Part shown: positions 3,554-33,867 of the stretch, piece after piece
Position numbering within the stretch: the stretch's first letter is position 1
Layout: the number at the start of each line of letters is the position of its first letter
Virus record (IMG/VR): IMGVR_UViG_3300037882_000454
Coordinates: 1 to 34,899 of that record
Length of the DNA: 34,899 nucleotides
Origin: a virus
Direction: 5' to 3' (one strand)
Translations under genes and position numbers: made by a program
The notes under the pieces: model-generated
Seen by the model: only the letters and a program-made list of their open reading frames with translations
The model's database searches: none
What the model was told of the DNA's origin: nothing

Positions 3554-4188
3554 TAACAGCCTCCGTTAGCAAAGATAGAAGAGATATCTCTACCCATCTT
3601 GATATCAGCGTTGATCTTTTTGTAGTGGTTCAGAGCATTAGAGGTTGCGTTCATGTCACCAAAGAAGGCAGCTACCTTAGCCATGCTACGGTTTAACTCT
3701 ACAGTTAACAGAGCAGCAGCTGCATCGTTACCTTCATCTAAAGCCATATTAATCTGTCGACTAAGTAAAGGTAGATTGTTCATTGTATTAATAAATACAG
3801 GAGTAATAAGTTCCTTCTCAGCCATGCTAAAGACTTGACCTTTAGAACGGTTCATAAGAAGCTGCTCACCTGCTTTATAGATATCATTAGCATCTTCAGG
3901 GAACATAGTCTTAGCAACTACGTTAGCTTGATCCTTAGCGTATTGCTGGATATCATCAAGCTTCTGTCCCTTCTGAGACTGTCTAGCAAACTGCTGATTC
4001 TTAACACCAGCTAGTTTACTTAACAGAGTGTTCTCATCCTTATCAAGGAAAGAACGTACTCCAATGTACTTTGATAGTTGTTGGTTATCTAACTCTTTTA
4101 ACTTATCTAACTGAGCAGGTGTAAAAGGTTGTCCTCTATCACCCTTCTTTACGAAGTACTTGTAGTACTCCATGTTGCATTTTTTCAT
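3553..4188 (-). CDS. Putative internal virion protein
   Basis: This encodes 211 residues from the ATG at 4188, which overlaps the preceding stop as ATGA. An upstream ATG at 4197 would add three residues and lies deeper in the previous gene. The product is hydrophilic and helical, rich in Gln, Asn and Lys, with no membrane segment and no known motif. It lies between two large virion proteins and is probably part of the ejected protein set. It is the first whole gene downstream of the internal promoter at 4482-4510, so it may be made at a higher level than the genes upstream. Confidence 0.55.
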   Translation of the reverse strand: MKKCNMEYYKYFVKKGDRGQPFTPAQLDKLKELDNQQLSKYIGVRSFLDKDENTLLSKLAGVKNQQFARQSQKGQKLDDIQQYAKDQANVVAKTMFPEDANDIYKAGEQLLMNRSKGQVFSMAEKELITPVFINTMNNLPLLSRQINMALDEGNDAAAALLTVELNRSMAKVAAFFGDMNATSNALNHYKKINADIKMGRDISSIFANGGC

Positions 4189-5801
4189 AGTTTGCATCCA
4201 TCAAAGAATCCAGCTTTAGCTAAATCAATCTCATCACCTTTAGAGATACCACCTTCACGAAGGAAAGTATCAAACTTAGAAGGAGACCACTCCTTACCAC
4301 GTACTACAGATAAGTCTTCGACTGTTCTAGCATAAGCTTTAATAATCTTACCCATTTCATCAGCAGGGAGATCAGGAATAGCTTTCTTAATCTCTTCAAT
4401 AACTAACTTTACGTTAGGATCTGCTAAACTAATCTTAGGCTTCGTGCCAGTTGCTTCAGCTTCAAGTAACTGTCTACCCATATTATACACTATTCTTGAA
4501 GGACTGTCAAGTGTTTTCCATGCTGCTGAGTCAACTTCTAATGCTTTAGGGATGTTAGGGGATGTTGATAGAGGAACTACAGGAACTGCAGCTGATTCAT
4601 TACCAAAGTTATCAACAGCTTTAGTAATAGGATTGATACCTGCTAGTTTAGAAGCAGGAATAAAACCTTTATCAGGAGTAGCTTTAACATGCTTCTTAAC
4701 TTCTTTACCTAGTTGACGAATCGTAGACTCATCAGAGATACCTGTAGCTGTTTTAATCCAGTCCATGTAGCGTTGATCACCGGCAGATAACTCTTTATCA
4801 TTACCGACAATGTACAATGCTCTATCTAAATCAGAGTCAAAGCGTACTACATCACGTCCATATCTAGGAGCAGCTTTCTCAAGCCCTACAGGCAGCTTAG
4901 AAGAGTACGGATCAAAGTTAGCTACAGCTACGTTAGGGTTTATTGGAGCACCTGCCATAGCGTTATCTACTTGATCTAAAGGCACTGTATCAGCTACACC
5001 TGCTTTAGGTGCTGTGATATCTAAATCAGTTAACTTCTGGTCAACCTCTTCAGCTACCTTCTTCTCTACAGTATTAGCAACATCTGCAACTTCATCAGAT
5101 ACATTGTCTACTGTACGAAGAGCACCAAACTTCTGGAGTAGCTTACCTAGTGCACCACCAATAACACCACCACCTGCAGCAGACCAAGCAGCATTAGTCG
5201 TTCTACCTGCTACAGAGTTACCTTCATCAGTGTAAGTAGGATCTAAGAAGCCAGTGACACCACCGATAACAAGACCTTCTTTAACGAATCCTGCTACGTT
5301 CTTAGCAGCACCGCCAATCAAGTTATAAGGATCTGAGACAGTACCGGCAGCGTAACCACCCATAGCTGACTTACTATAACCTTGATCTTTGTATAACTCG
5401 TATTCGTATTCTCTCTTGATGTCTTCAGCTTTATCTTCTGCAGATCTTTTCTCAATCAGTTTAGATCCACCGGGTAACGCAAGAGTAGCAATGGTAGATA
5501 AGTTCTTAAGGTACTCAGGAACAACACCTTCTGTCTTCTTCTCTACTTGTTCTTCAATCTGAGAGATACCTCTATCAGTACTTGTATGTCCTCGCTCAGC
5601 ACCACGAGCAGCTGCTTTAGCTGAAGTAGTAGCGTTAGGATCAATACCGTATGCTAGTTTACCAATGATCTCTCTTTCAGAAAAGCCCTGTTCAAGAGCC
5701 TTCTGATAGTTAAAACCTTCTTCCTTTTCTGCTAAGTGTGCAATAATCTCTTCATCAGAGAAGCCTTGTTCTTTTGCTTTGAAGTAGTTAAAGGTAGCCA
5801 T
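4185..5801 (-). CDS. Putative internal virion protein with N-terminal tandem motif
   Basis: This encodes 538 residues. The N-terminus carries two copies of a motif of about 27 residues: FNYFKAKEQGFSDEEIIAHL (from residue 4) and FNYQKALEQGFSEREIIGKL (from about residue 30). This type of motif is seen at the start of phage virion proteins. A Gly/Ala-rich hydrophobic part follows at about residues 145-220, which could insert in a membrane. The C-terminal half is hydrophilic with several helical segments. No lysozyme or protease motif is evident. It overlaps the preceding gene as TAATG and the following gene as ATGA. A role in DNA ejection is inferred from position. Confidence 0.6.
   Translation of the reverse strand: MATFNYFKAKEQGFSDEEIIAHLAEKEEGFNYQKALEQGFSEREIIGKLAYGIDPNATTSAKAAARGAERGHTSTDRGISQIEEQVEKKTEGVVPEYLKNLSTIATLALPGGSKLIEKRSAEDKAEDIKREYEYELYKDQGYSKSAMGGYAAGTVSDPYNLIGGAAKNVAGFVKEGLVIGGVTGFLDPTYTDEGNSVAGRTTNAAWSAAGGGVIGGALGKLLQKFGALRTVDNVSDEVADVANTVEKKVAEEVDQKLTDLDITAPKAGVADTVPLDQVDNAMAGAPINPNVAVANFDPYSSKLPVGLEKAAPRYGRDVVRFDSDLDRALYIVGNDKELSAGDQRYMDWIKTATGISDESTIRQLGKEVKKHVKATPDKGFIPASKLAGINPITKAVDNFGNESAAVPVVPLSTSPNIPKALEVDSAAWKTLDSPSRIVYNMGRQLLEAEATGTKPKISLADPNVKLVIEEIKKAIPDLPADEMGKIIKAYARTVEDLSVVRGKEWSPSKFDTFLREGGISKGDEIDLAKAGFFDGCKL
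4482..4510 (-). promoter_or_regulatory. Sigma70-type promoter inside a coding sequence
   Basis: On the minus strand, TTGACA (4505-4510) and TATAAT (4482-4487) are separated by exactly 17 bases, a perfect consensus. It lies within the gene at 4185-5801, about 290 bases upstream of the next start. It would drive the two ejection protein genes, the holin and the DUF5675 gene. Matching both hexamers with this spacing by chance at one given place is very unlikely, and three similar promoters occur in the same block. Confidence 0.7.
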
Positions 5802-29647: not shown

Positions 29648-31297
29648 ATGAAAATTATACTTGATATCGAAACGAATAGTACTCATGATGTTATATGGGT
29701 GTGTGTTACAAGAGACTTAGAAACAAACGAGGTTAAGGTATGGAAGGAAGCAAACGGATTACAAAAGTATTTGGATCATTGCGATTTGATTATAATGCAA
29801 AACGGAATAGCATTCGATGCGAAGGTACTACAGAAAGTATGGAAGATATCTGTGAACCTGAGCCACGTGTCCGATACGCTCGTGTTAAGCAGGTTGCTAA
29901 GTCCAAGCTTAGAGGGAGGTCATAGTTTAGAAGCATGGGGTCAACGCTTAGGGTTTCCTAAGGGCGACTTCAAAGACTGGGATGGTGGGTTAACTGAAGA
30001 GATGTTGACCTACTGTATTCAGGATACGTTAGTTACTAGTAAACTTTACAAACATCTAGTAGCTGAATTAGATAACCAAGGATTTGATAAAAGGAGTATT
30101 GAACTTGAACACGAGGTACAAAAAATCATCTGCAAGCAAGAAGAAAACGGTTTCAGATTTAATGAAAGAGAAGCTATCTATCTTCTTGCACAACTTAAGG
30201 GTAAGCTTAGCTATATTGAAGCTAAACTACAGAGTGTATTCCCAACAAAAACAGCTGAGAGATACTCAGAAAAAACGGGAAAGCGTCTCAAAGATTATGT
30301 CGAAGTATTCAACCCCGGAAGTCGACAACAAATCGGAGAGCGTCTCATCGAAAAAGGGTGGAAGCCAACAGTCTTTACAGAAACAGGACAGCCAAAAGTT
30401 GACGAAACAACCCTCAAAGAGAGCACGATCCCCGAAGCAAAACTAATCGGTGAGTACCTAATGCTACAGAAGCGTATCAGTCAGATTGATTCATGGCTAG
30501 AAGCTGTAGGAAAAGATGGCAGGGTACACGGTAGGGTAATAACAAACGGAGCTGTGACAGGACGCATGACACACATGAGCCCTAACATGGCACAGGTACC
30601 TAACTCAGGTAGTGAGTATGGTGAAGAATGTAGAGCACTGTGGACAGTAGAGAAAGGATATAAGTTAGTAGGTATCGATGCTTCAGGTTTAGAACTTCGA
30701 ATGCTTGCTCACTATATGAATGATGATGCGTATACGAATGAAGTTGTCTCGGGTGATGTGCATACAGCGAATCAAAACGCTGCAGGGCTTGAGAACCGTA
30801 ACCAAGCAAAGACATTTATATATGCTTTCTTATACGGAGCAGGAGCGTCCAAGATTGGGAAGATTACTGGTGGTGGAGCACAGGAAGGGCAAAAACTTAT
30901 CGATAGATTTTTATCGAACACCCCGAAACTTAGGGAGCTTAGAGAGAAAGTTTCAAAGATCTATCAGAGCAAGGGGTCACTGCCGAGCCTTGATGGTCGC
31001 AGACTACAAGTTAGATCGGAACACTCATCGCTCAACACGTTATTGCAGGGTGCAGGTGCAGTAGTTATGAAGCAAGCATTAGTGTTGTTAGATAAGAAAC
31101 TTAAGTCAGCGGAGATTGATTACAAGTTCGTAGCTAATGTGCATGATGAGTGGCAGATAGAAGTAGAAGAAGCAAGAGCAGAAGAGGTCGGTAAGTTAGG
31201 TGTCGAATCAATTGCTGAAGCCGGACAAGTGCTTAGCATGCGATGCCCTCTTAGCGGTGAGTATAAGGTAGGTAACAATTGGAAGGAAACACACTGA
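29648..31297 (+). CDS. DNA polymerase, family A (T7-like)
   Basis: This encodes 549 residues. The 3'-5' exonuclease domain shows LDIETN (Asp6, Glu8), NGIAFDAKVL (Asp57) and YCIQDTLVT (Asp126). The polymerase domain shows motif A GIDASGLELR (Asp344), motif B RNQAKTFIYAFLYGAG (Lys388, Tyr392) and motif C VHDEW (His499, Asp500). These match T7 polymerase motifs, and Tyr392 corresponds to T7 Tyr526. The protein is about 150 residues shorter than T7 polymerase and has no room for the thioredoxin-binding loop, so it likely has another processivity mechanism. No ribosome binding site precedes the ATG. It overlaps the next gene as TGATG. Confidence 0.95.
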   Translation: MKIILDIETNSTHDVIWVCVTRDLETNEVKVWKEANGLQKYLDHCDLIIMQNGIAFDAKVLQKVWKISVNLSHVSDTLVLSRLLSPSLEGGHSLEAWGQRLGFPKGDFKDWDGGLTEEMLTYCIQDTLVTSKLYKHLVAELDNQGFDKRSIELEHEVQKIICKQEENGFRFNEREAIYLLAQLKGKLSYIEAKLQSVFPTKTAERYSEKTGKRLKDYVEVFNPGSRQQIGERLIEKGWKPTVFTETGQPKVDETTLKESTIPEAKLIGEYLMLQKRISQIDSWLEAVGKDGRVHGRVITNGAVTGRMTHMSPNMAQVPNSGSEYGEECRALWTVEKGYKLVGIDASGLELRMLAHYMNDDAYTNEVVSGDVHTANQNAAGLENRNQAKTFIYAFLYGAGASKIGKITGGGAQEGQKLIDRFLSNTPKLRELREKVSKIYQSKGSLPSLDGRRLQVRSEHSSLNTLLQGAGAVVMKQALVLLDKKLKSAEIDYKFVANVHDEWQIEVEEARAEEVGKLGVESIAEAGQVLSMRCPLSGEYKVGNNWKETH

Positions 31298-31704: not shown

Positions 31705-32187
31705 ATGGCTAAAGAAGAGATTTTAATTAAAGGTGATGTGTACTGGTGTAACAACTATGAGCGTAATGCTAAGAGCCGTAAGTATCAGATCGACTTGTGC
31801 AACTTGTCAGCTGATGCAGTACAGGCACTAGCACGTATCGGTATCGAAGCTAAGCGTGATGATGCTAAGAAGCCGGCTCAAGGATTCTACATCACATGTA
31901 AGAGTGCGGGTTACGTGATCAACACTTACGATAAGACTGGTAAAGAGTTAGGTGAGTGGGTTAAGATTGATAAGGGTACTGAAGTTAAGCGTGACGAACA
32001 AGGTAAAGCTTTGTACACACGAGTATCGAATGGCTCTAAAGCATTGGCAACAATCTCACCGTATGAGACTACAGTAAACGGTCAGCGTTATACGCAAGGT
32101 AGCATCAAGAAGATTGTTATCACTGACTTGATTGAGTACAACCCACAAGGTATGGATGTCTCTAAGATGGAAGAAGAGGCTCTGTGA
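31705..32187 (+). CDS. Single-stranded DNA-binding protein
   Basis: This encodes 160 residues. The pattern LIKGDVYWCNNYERNAKSRKYQIDLCNLSADAVQAL, then GFYITCKSAGYVINTYDKTGKEL, NGSKALATISPYE and IVITDLIEYNP is that of small OB-fold ssDNA-binding proteins of T7-like podoviruses. The acidic end (MEEEAL) is the usual tail that contacts polymerase and helicase. It coats exposed strands during replication and recombination. AGGAGAAGTAAAG precedes the ATG. It has its own promoter, which fits a need for large amounts. Confidence 0.8.
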   Translation: MAKEEILIKGDVYWCNNYERNAKSRKYQIDLCNLSADAVQALARIGIEAKRDDAKKPAQGFYITCKSAGYVINTYDKTGKELGEWVKIDKGTEVKRDEQGKALYTRVSNGSKALATISPYETTVNGQRYTQGSIKKIVITDLIEYNPQGMDVSKMEEEAL

Positions 32188-32921
32188 GAAAGGCACTGAT
32201 AGACGCTGATATTCTAGTCTATCGTGTTGGCTTCGCTTCTGAGGATACTTCGGAAGCGTTAGCCGTCTCTCGGATGAGGGAGTTTGTTGAGGACTTAATT
32301 TTGTTTAATGGGTTTGATAGCTTCATCGGATACTTAACCGGTAAGCAGAACTACAGAACAGAGATAGCTAAGACAGCTCCCTACAAAGGGAACCGTAAAG
32401 CACCGAAACCGAAACACTATCATGCTTTACGAGAATACTTGTTAACAAAGTGGGACTTTACTTTAGTAGAAGGGCAGGAAGCGGATGACGCAATAGGAAT
32501 CAAAGCATACGAGCTAGATCCTGAAGAGTTCTCTATCTGTTCTATCGATAAAGATTTAGATATGATTCGTGGTAATCACTATAACTTTGTAAAGGATTTC
32601 TTTTACGATGTTACTGAAGAGGAAGCGATCAGACACTTTTACAAACAGTTACTAACAGGAGATAGAGTTGACAATATCATCGGTCTCAAAGGAATTGGAG
32701 ACGTTAAAGCGAAGAGGATTCTTGAAGAATGCAAAACAGAAAACGAAATGTATCTTGCTGTACTCGAAGCGTACGAAGGAAACTTGGAGCGAGTACTGGA
32801 GAACGGGCAGTTGTTGTGGATAAGAAGACAAGCAAACGAACTCTGGCAACCGCCCAGCTCGTGTATATCGAGTGGGTCGATGCAGTGTCAGACGGAGGAT
32901 GGGAAGACGATATCAAAGTAG
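32184..32921 (+). CDS. 5'-3' exonuclease (T7 gp6-like)
   Basis: This encodes 245 residues from a GTG at 32184 that overlaps the previous stop as GTGA. It shows LIDADI (Asp7, Asp9), YKGNRKAPKP, EGQEADDAIG, CSIDKDLDMI, and GDRVDNIIGLKGIGDVKAKRIL, the helix-three-turn-helix of the FEN family. It removes primers, degrades host DNA or makes recombination ends. The conserved fold ends near LLWIRRQANELWQPP; the last 21 residues are not typical of the family and overlap the next gene. Confidence 0.88.
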   Translation: MRKALIDADILVYRVGFASEDTSEALAVSRMREFVEDLILFNGFDSFIGYLTGKQNYRTEIAKTAPYKGNRKAPKPKHYHALREYLLTKWDFTLVEGQEADDAIGIKAYELDPEEFSICSIDKDLDMIRGNHYNFVKDFFYDVTEEEAIRHFYKQLLTGDRVDNIIGLKGIGDVKAKRILEECKTENEMYLAVLEAYEGNLERVLENGQLLWIRRQANELWQPPSSCISSGSMQCQTEDGKTISK

Positions 32922-33199
32922 ATATTCATCCAGTGCGTACAGTAGGCTTTTTAGTCAGTGAATCTAAAGACGGTATCTGTCTAGCTTCTACTGTATCAGG
33001 TGAGATGACTAATGCTAGGATGCATATTCCTAAAGCTTGGATCACTAAACGAAAGGTAATTAAACTTGAAACAAAGAAAGTGCAGAAGGTGCAAAGAAAT
33101 GTTTCAGCTAGTGTCGGACAACCGGATATGCGAGGAGTGCAAGAAAAAGTGCAGCTCATGCGATCAACCACTAGTGAAAACAAATCAACACTCTTCTAG
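32861..33199 (+). CDS. Small phage protein of unknown function, extended into the next gene
   Basis: The frame codes YIEWVDAVSDGGWEDD, then RTVGFLVSESKDGICLASTVS and MHIPKAWITKRKVIKL, a compact domain found in other podoviruses where a protein starts near that WVDA motif. The GTG at 32861 is taken as start; an ATG at 32729 would extend 44 residues into the exonuclease gene. No good ribosome binding site is present for either. After KVIKL about 45 more residues follow, fully inside the endonuclease VII gene in another frame and of biased composition (many Lys, Gln, Ser). This tail is probably a by-product of insertion. The function is unknown. Confidence 0.55.
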   Translation: MYIEWVDAVSDGGWEDDIKVDIHPVRTVGFLVSESKDGICLASTVSGEMTNARMHIPKAWITKRKVIKLETKKVQKVQRNVSASVGQPDMRGVQEKVQLMRSTTSENKSTLF

Positions 33200-33629
33200 T
33201 ACATATAAAAGAAGTGGGTATATATGTAAGGAATGCGTGTCTCTAAGTGTTCGTAATACAACTTGTAAAGATAAACGAAAAGAATATGATTTATTTAGAA
33301 ACTATCGTTTAACTTCTCAAGAGTATTTACAAATGCTTGCTGATCAAGACTTTTCTTGTGCTGTTTGTGAGTGTAATATTACAGGTACTGATAAAGTATT
33401 ATGTGTAGATCACGACCATAAAACAGGACAAATAAGAGGATTGTTATGCGGTTCTTGTAATAGAGCATTAGGTATGTTTAAGGATAGTATTAATAATCTA
33501 TCTAATGCTATTAAGTATTTAAAAAGGAGTTTAAATGAAAACAGCGTCAGCGAAGAACAAGGGGAGGCTACTACAGCAGTGGGTAAGAGATCTACTCCTG
33601 AAGCTACACCCGGCACTGAGTTTAGATGA
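33066..33629 (+). CDS. Recombination endonuclease VII-like with zinc ribbon
   Basis: This encodes 187 residues from a TTG at 33066. Before the nuclease core are several cysteine pairs (Cys6, Cys9, Cys22, Cys25, then CSSC and CKEC), supporting the TTG start because an ATG at 33099 would lose the first pair. The core is YRLTSQEYLQMLADQDFSCAVCE, LCVDHDHKTGQIRGLLCGSCNRALGMF, the PF02945 His-Me-finger with zinc Cys98, Cys101, Cys128, Cys131 and catalytic Asp/His 115-118. These enzymes cut branched DNA, but stand-alone copies also behave as homing nucleases. AAAGG lies about 9 bases upstream. It overlaps the gene before by 134 bases and the gene after by 95 bases. Confidence 0.75.
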   Translation: MKQRKCRRCKEMFQLVSDNRICEECKKKCSSCDQPLVKTNQHSSSTYKRSGYICKECVSLSVRNTTCKDKRKEYDLFRNYRLTSQEYLQMLADQDFSCAVCECNITGTDKVLCVDHDHKTGQIRGLLCGSCNRALGMFKDSINNLSNAIKYLKRSLNENSVSEEQGEATTAVGKRSTPEATPGTEFR

Positions 33630-33867
33630 CGTACGTAGTACAAGTATGGGAGCAGGTGGAGAAGATATTCAGCTGAGCCCTGCTGCAAGAGAGATGATAC
33701 CGTTCACTATAGAATGTAAGAACAACGCTCGTATCGCTGTATATAAGTTTTACGAACAAGCTTGTGCACATGGTAAAGGTGAGCCGATTGTCGTTATTAA
33801 ACAGAATAGATCTAAGCCACTCGTAATCGTGGACGCAGATTATTTCTTTAGGGAGATTAGTAAATGA
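33535..33867 (+). CDS. PDDEXK-type nuclease, resolvase-like
   Basis: This encodes 110 residues, starting after AAAGGAG. It has NKGRLLQQWVRDLLLK, GAGGEDIQLSPAARE, and PFTIECKNNARIAVYKFYEQA, then GEPIVVIKQNRSKPLVIVDA. The order Glu, Asp, Glu-X-Lys is the catalytic core of the PD-(D/E)XK fold found in small phage nucleases and Holliday-junction resolvases. It likely resolves branched replication products or acts in recombination with the exonuclease and ssDNA-binding protein encoded upstream. Overlaps: 95 bases with the previous gene, ATGA with the next. Confidence 0.75.
   Translation: MKTASAKNKGRLLQQWVRDLLLKLHPALSLDDVRSTSMGAGGEDIQLSPAAREMIPFTIECKNNARIAVYKFYEQACAHGKGEPIVVIKQNRSKPLVIVDADYFFREISK

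Follow-up and report, generated by a model that had tools for sequence, protein, structure and literature searches.

Gene neighbourhood and identity of the nuclease

The DNA analysed here is a 34.9-kb virus record (the whole stretch, hereafter the window) whose minus strand encodes terminase, portal and tail genes and whose plus strand carries a replication module. At the locus of interest, a 5'-3' exonuclease gene is followed by a small gene (A), an Endonuclease VII-type nuclease gene (E) and a gene of the PD-(D/E)XK / RusA-like resolvase family (B), each overlapping the next (Table 1). The overlaps of E with A (134 nt, A ending at 33199) and with B (95 nt, B spanning 33535-33867) have the coordinates and sizes given in an earlier note on this DNA. 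That note had placed overlaps elsewhere at only 1-26 bases, which describes the remaining junctions (about 1-25 nt) but not the exonuclease/A junction, where the overlap is 61 nt, or 106 nt with A starting at GTG 32816. Most relatives have a conserved start codon at this position, which suggests that A starts at GTG 32816. A further possible A start codon, at 32843, differs between the window, where the A frame reads CTG GCA ACC, and near-identical contigs lacking E, which read TTG GCA ACC.

Table 1. Coordinates of the features discussed, in the window unless a contig is named.
Feature	Position	Strand	Basis or remark
5'-3' exonuclease gene	32184..32921	+	phrog_107; upstream neighbour of gene A, which it overlaps
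Gene A, small beta-barrel protein, function unassigned	32816..33199	+	start GTG 32816 likely, 32861 possible
AAAGG, now preceding E; likely the ribosome site of B in empty alleles	33052..33056	+	sequence and empty alleles; putative function
Nuclease E, Endonuclease VII-type, TTG start, 187 aa	33066..33629	+	PF02945 and PHROG endonuclease VII matches
Inserted segment, 469 bp	33067..33535	+	alignment to empty alleles L002/L125 and L003/L126, both without the segment
N-terminal part of E, four CxxC pairs	33081..33236	+	alignment; most aligned relatives have two fewer
Catalytic core of E (CxxC, DHDH, R, CxxC-N), all DHHRN residues present	33294..33524	+	PF02945; columns invariant among 37 relatives
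AAGGAG, carried in by the insert, likely the new ribosome site of B	33524..33529	+	sequence; putative function
Gene B, PD-(D/E)XK / RusA-like resolvase family	33535..33867	+	phrog_244; restarted at new ATG
Last 31 residues of E, A's out-of-frame tail and stop in empty alleles	33537..33629	+	same reading ends A in L002
Recoded tract of 24 bp, differing from both empty contigs at 7 positions	33546..33569	+	alignment to empty alleles
HNH-like ORF by eye, without Pfam match	L107 3273-3722; L109 2922-3371		exonuclease/A junction
HNH_3 endonuclease, weak AP2 match	L065 3267-3791		exonuclease/A junction
Unclassified ORF, PD-(D/E)XK-like by eye only	L067 2982-3458		exonuclease/A junction

The product of A (window 32861-33065) matched no Pfam or PHROG entry at 0.001. 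It is modelled as a small barrel of five strands, and its best matches in the PDB, to Sm/LSm proteins, are weak (Foldseek E 0.003). The conserved domain of about 70 residues ends near 33070 and is followed by about 42 residues that are unlike the tails of A relatives and predicted to be disordered in the window (pLDDT < 50). The fold of E likewise ends near residue 156, with 31 extra residues of low confidence (pLDDT ~60) behind it. Both extensions had been pointed out in the earlier note and are borne out here.

E matches Pfam PF02945 over residues 77-153 as well as PHROG endonuclease VII, and its motif residues (CAVC, DHDH, R and CGSCN) are invariant or nearly so among 37 relatives. The N-terminal CxxC pairs may possibly form zinc ribbons for DNA recognition. 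In fold and profile comparisons the best match is Hpy99I, with T4 EndoVII next. The closest functional counterpart is F-CphI of cyanophage S-PM2, a demonstrated free-standing DHHRN homing endonuclease (PMC6083498), with which E shares 46.6% identity over 101 residues and a C-terminal motif, the DHDH of E lying at 0.74 of its length. In a tree whose sampling is uneven, most non-resolvase rows having been gathered by similarity to E, the T4-type and podoviral resolvases split at 100/100 from E, F-CphI and an intron-encoded EndoVII, a division into resolvases and endonucleases in keeping with the scheme of Fang et al. (PMC6083498). E lacks both the N-terminal motif of a T4-type resolvase and a place among the resolvases, and it has what was looked for in a DHHRN homing endonuclease: the residues, the position of the motif and in the tree, and an optional presence with an uninterrupted allele. 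The residues, tree position and optional presence would thus assign E to the F-CphI type.

Filled and empty alleles

Two contigs (L002/L125 and L003/L126), which align to the window upstream of the site with 95% and 97% identity, are without a segment of exactly 469 bp; it carries a single ORF, that of the nuclease, which fills nearly all of it. The ends of this insert are uncertain by 5 bp, with TGAAA present at both junctions (33067-33071 and 33536-33540), and its GC content is 33% compared with 41-44% in the flanks. Among 86 distinct contigs carrying both A and B, the two genes are directly adjacent in 82 and one gave a partial match, while only three, the window and L033/L034, have a nuclease gene in between, which is absent from 83 of the 86. 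Outgroups with B about 80% identical are also empty. The locus thus carries an insertion, with gain in the window lineage as the simplest reading. The earlier note had proposed that a mobile nuclease gene landed between two genes, and the near-identical empty genomes uphold this; E and its overlaps are far from conserved in all relatives. Its expectation of a shorter upstream gene in relatives without E held only in part: such relatives exist, but their A, counted from 32861, is only slightly shorter (99 vs 112 residues) and has a different tail.

The window allele is carried by one contig only among those examined, and searches for its source returned little. The exact junction sequence gave one match, which lacked the exonuclease, A, E and B genes and was taken as chance. 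A profile search for further copies of E recovered L033/L034 again (as L242/L243) and two distant relatives, and a search of genome contigs two distant relatives. No donor phage was found. The structural gene at 4185-5801, searched for cultured relatives, gave no match. Elsewhere in the window, about 90 substitutions relative to both empty contigs are concentrated at 30724-31063, within the DNA polymerase gene and amid surroundings of low divergence; this block is likely a recombination tract.

Comparison of the alleles accounts for the unusual overlaps. The start codon of B in empty relatives is mostly a TTG located four bases inside the conserved domain of A, and the A frame continues into B, mostly for 59-95 nt. 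The A/B overlap is 131-179 nt in a few empty lineages where B starts with ATG, with extremes of 50 nt in one truncated case and a larger value in one contig with a small deletion. Judged by these alleles, the 95-nt overlap in the window is the older A/B overlap and was not created by the insertion. The earlier note had attributed the overlaps to lost stop codons, a cause that we reject as the A/B overlap predates the insertion and A's former stop has become that of E. Read from the old start, the E ORF begins at the former TTG start codon of B and ends at this former stop. The insert length of 469 is 1 mod 3, and the resulting frame shift is how E inherited A's tail and stop while A gained a new tail from E DNA. 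Accordingly, gene A of L002 ends in TTAVGKRSTPEATPGTEFR and identical letters end E in the window, and the residues of A past about 33070 are nuclease DNA read in another frame. B, which starts with TTG in empty alleles, restarts at ATG 33535, downstream of AAGGAG. Synonymous variation of B is only slightly lower inside the A/B overlap (0.46) than in the rest of the gene (0.51), so the old tail of A does not look strongly constrained, which fits its loss in the window.

Directly beside the insert, the 5' end of B is recoded. The 24-bp tract holds seven differences from both empty contigs, whereas 222 bp on the left side of the insert and the 165 bp that follow the tract on the right are free of differences. 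In B, five of the seven are silent changes at third codon positions and the remaining two alter one residue. This clustering has p ~1e-7 under even spacing, and other differences in the alignment are clustered as well. Over a 27-nt tract, each of 63 empty alleles is within 4 differences of another, while the two filled alleles stand 5 and 6 from the nearest empty one. At three of the seven sites the window has the outgroup state and it is L002/L003 that deviate. Copying of a short stretch from a donor would fit this pattern and might also have eliminated a cleavage site.

Insertions in related phages

A parallel case is found in a second lineage. The nuclease of L033/L034 is 47% identical to E, is its sister in the tree (97/83) and is inserted after codon 7 of B, and the empty relatives L045/L049/L053 match on both sides. 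Two versions of the first codons of B flank this nuclease, the right-hand copy of the first nine being recoded, with AGC AGC changed to TCC TCA for two serines. GC is lowered in both EndoVII-type inserts, and the L033/L034 insertion is present in two metagenomes.

In related phages the exonuclease/A junction has taken up three unrelated ORFs (Table 1), and A restarts at a new ATG; the junction is a hot spot for optional genes resembling nucleases. Each of the five inserted ORFs shares the reading frame of the old start of the gene it invaded, and that gene has a new ATG; the old starts of A were placed by comparison with relatives, and five in-frame cases would have a chance of about (1/3)^5 = 0.004 if independent. 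In three of the five (the window, L033 and L107) a second 5' end has clearly come in with the insert.

Probable mobility of the nuclease gene and competing explanations

The whole is very probably explained by a free-standing EndoVII (DHHRN) homing-endonuclease-like gene that was recently inserted at the start of B within an older A/B overlap. According to this model, a 469-bp segment with the nuclease gene entered the start codon of B inside the pre-existing overlap. Translation of E would begin at the ribosome site and TTG that formerly served B; E has no stop of its own and ends at A's former stop, thereby inheriting the tail of A and the 95-nt overlap with B. A has lost its old tail and reads 134 nt into the nuclease in another frame, while B stays whole through its new ribosome site, its new ATG and a 5' end of donor type in which the recoding is almost silent. 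The sequence comparisons establish the insertion, its likely direction, the frames, the recoded tract and the parallel case in the second lineage. Beyond this, the 5' end of B is most likely the target of E as a mobile gene of homing-endonuclease-like type. E may cut uninterrupted B near codons 3-12 in co-infecting phages, whereupon repair from the insert-bearing genome would copy the nuclease gene into the cut phage, and the recoding may shield the insert-bearing genome from self-cutting.

Several lines of evidence argue for this explanation: the exact 469-bp gap in near-identical empty alleles, with few filled contigs and empty outgroups; the A/B overlap and TTG start of B that are widespread in empty relatives; the identity to F-CphI, the tree split and the C-terminal motif; the filled and empty pair of L033/L034 and L045/L049/L053, where the 5' end of B is recoded too; and the recoded tract beside the insert, the lower GC of both inserts and the five in-frame insertions. 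Against it weigh the want of a donor phage, the single contig with the allele and the clustering of differences elsewhere. A cut site right beside the insert would also be unusual, as the free-standing homing endonucleases known from T4 have their cut sites hundreds or thousands of bases away from the gene (PMC2988022).

The main competing view concerns the recoded tract alone and accepts the insertion: the changes would reflect selection on the new tail of E, exchanging basic for acidic or neutral residues in the tail it inherited yet remaining silent in B, and neither donor copying nor protection from self-cutting would be involved. The nuclease-frame tail does read NSVSEEQGEA compared with NSISKKQRKG in the empty frame, and in L033 the recoding terminates the nuclease 8 residues into B. 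The outgroup states at three of the seven sites, however, point to a different ancestry of the tract, and the box-switched serine codons of L033 are hard to reach through single selected changes, which together make this view unlikely. We consider it improbable to a further degree that E is the phage's own Holliday-junction resolvase, resident beside the PD-(D/E)XK gene and lost from the empty relatives. The EndoVII family name favours such a role, as does podovirus MR5, in which an EndoVII of the resolvase half lies between two exonuclease genes, and the earlier note had allowed for a normal part in junction resolution. Yet E groups with F-CphI, apart from T4-type resolvases, in both the tree and the order of domains, E is missing from most contigs including near-identical phages, B itself belongs to a resolvase-like family, and exact loss would have to recreate the same overlapping frames every time.

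Two further explanations have still less in their favour. The contig is metagenomic and its allele was seen once, as might be expected if the assembly had joined the nuclease gene of another phage to it; but the alleles share only about 10 bases at the left junction (AAACTTGAAA), probably too short for the usual assembly overlap, the ORF frames and new ribosome site fit a working arrangement, and the L033/L034 insertion recurs in two metagenomes, so that an artefact seems very unlikely. Least plausible of all, and barely credible, is a group I intron or other spliced element in B with the nuclease as its ORF. EndoVII-type nucleases do occur in phage group I introns (PMC6083498; Bas93), but a search for a group I intron core around the ORF found nothing in Rfam at E values up to 1, either in the window or in L033, the ORF occupies nearly all of the 469 bp, and behind the insert B starts anew from a start codon and ribosome site of its own.

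E can be compared with several known systems. F-CphI, like E, is encoded by a free-standing gene and has a C-terminal EndoVII motif preceded by a CxxC pair. It lies beside the intron-bearing psbA gene, however, and the intron protects its target (PMC6083498), whereas E has no intron, its gene sits inside an overlap at the likely target and the first codons of that target are recoded. By eye, the gene after F-CphI in S-PM2 is not a relative of B. The seg and mob genes of T4, which belong to a different nuclease family, are likewise optional nuclease genes between conserved genes and overlap the upstream ORF, but they overlap by about 1-24 bp and cut at a distance (PMC2988022), in contrast to the 134 and 95 nt of E and its putative adjacent cut site. 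T4 endonuclease VII (gp49) shares the catalytic motif and fold with E but has an N-terminal motif, falls in the resolvase half of the tree and is a resident gene. Hpy99I, the best solved-structure match, is unlike E a bacterial restriction enzyme, and no methylase is present among the genes read around E.

Engineered home-and-rescue gene drives (PMC7968924) resemble the window in placing a nuclease at its target together with a recoded piece that restores the target gene; they are insect systems unrelated to E, and the likeness is an analogy only. A natural counterpart, in which nuclease genes capture the invaded start codon in frame and supply both a new start and a recoded 5' end that can no longer be cut, keeping the invaded gene intact, is conceivable, but we regard it as doubtful. 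Dense gene overlaps in phages leave little space for insertion, and the paired empty and filled sites provide one route by which an optional nuclease gene can enter an overlap with the downstream gene unbroken. Their comparison also indicates a short candidate cleavage site, and the pattern may help to separate mobile endonuclease VII-type genes from resolvases, which are often annotated alike.

Nuclease genes also occur at other positions near relatives of B. In the cyanophage Synechococcus phage MA01 (L238 1917-2845), an annotated homing endonuclease ends 4 nt inside a B relative; by eye it is a different protein from E, without the DHDH motif. EndoVII-type ORFs are found elsewhere downstream of B in relatives, beside other replication genes (L085 4064-4489 and L139 3303-3713).
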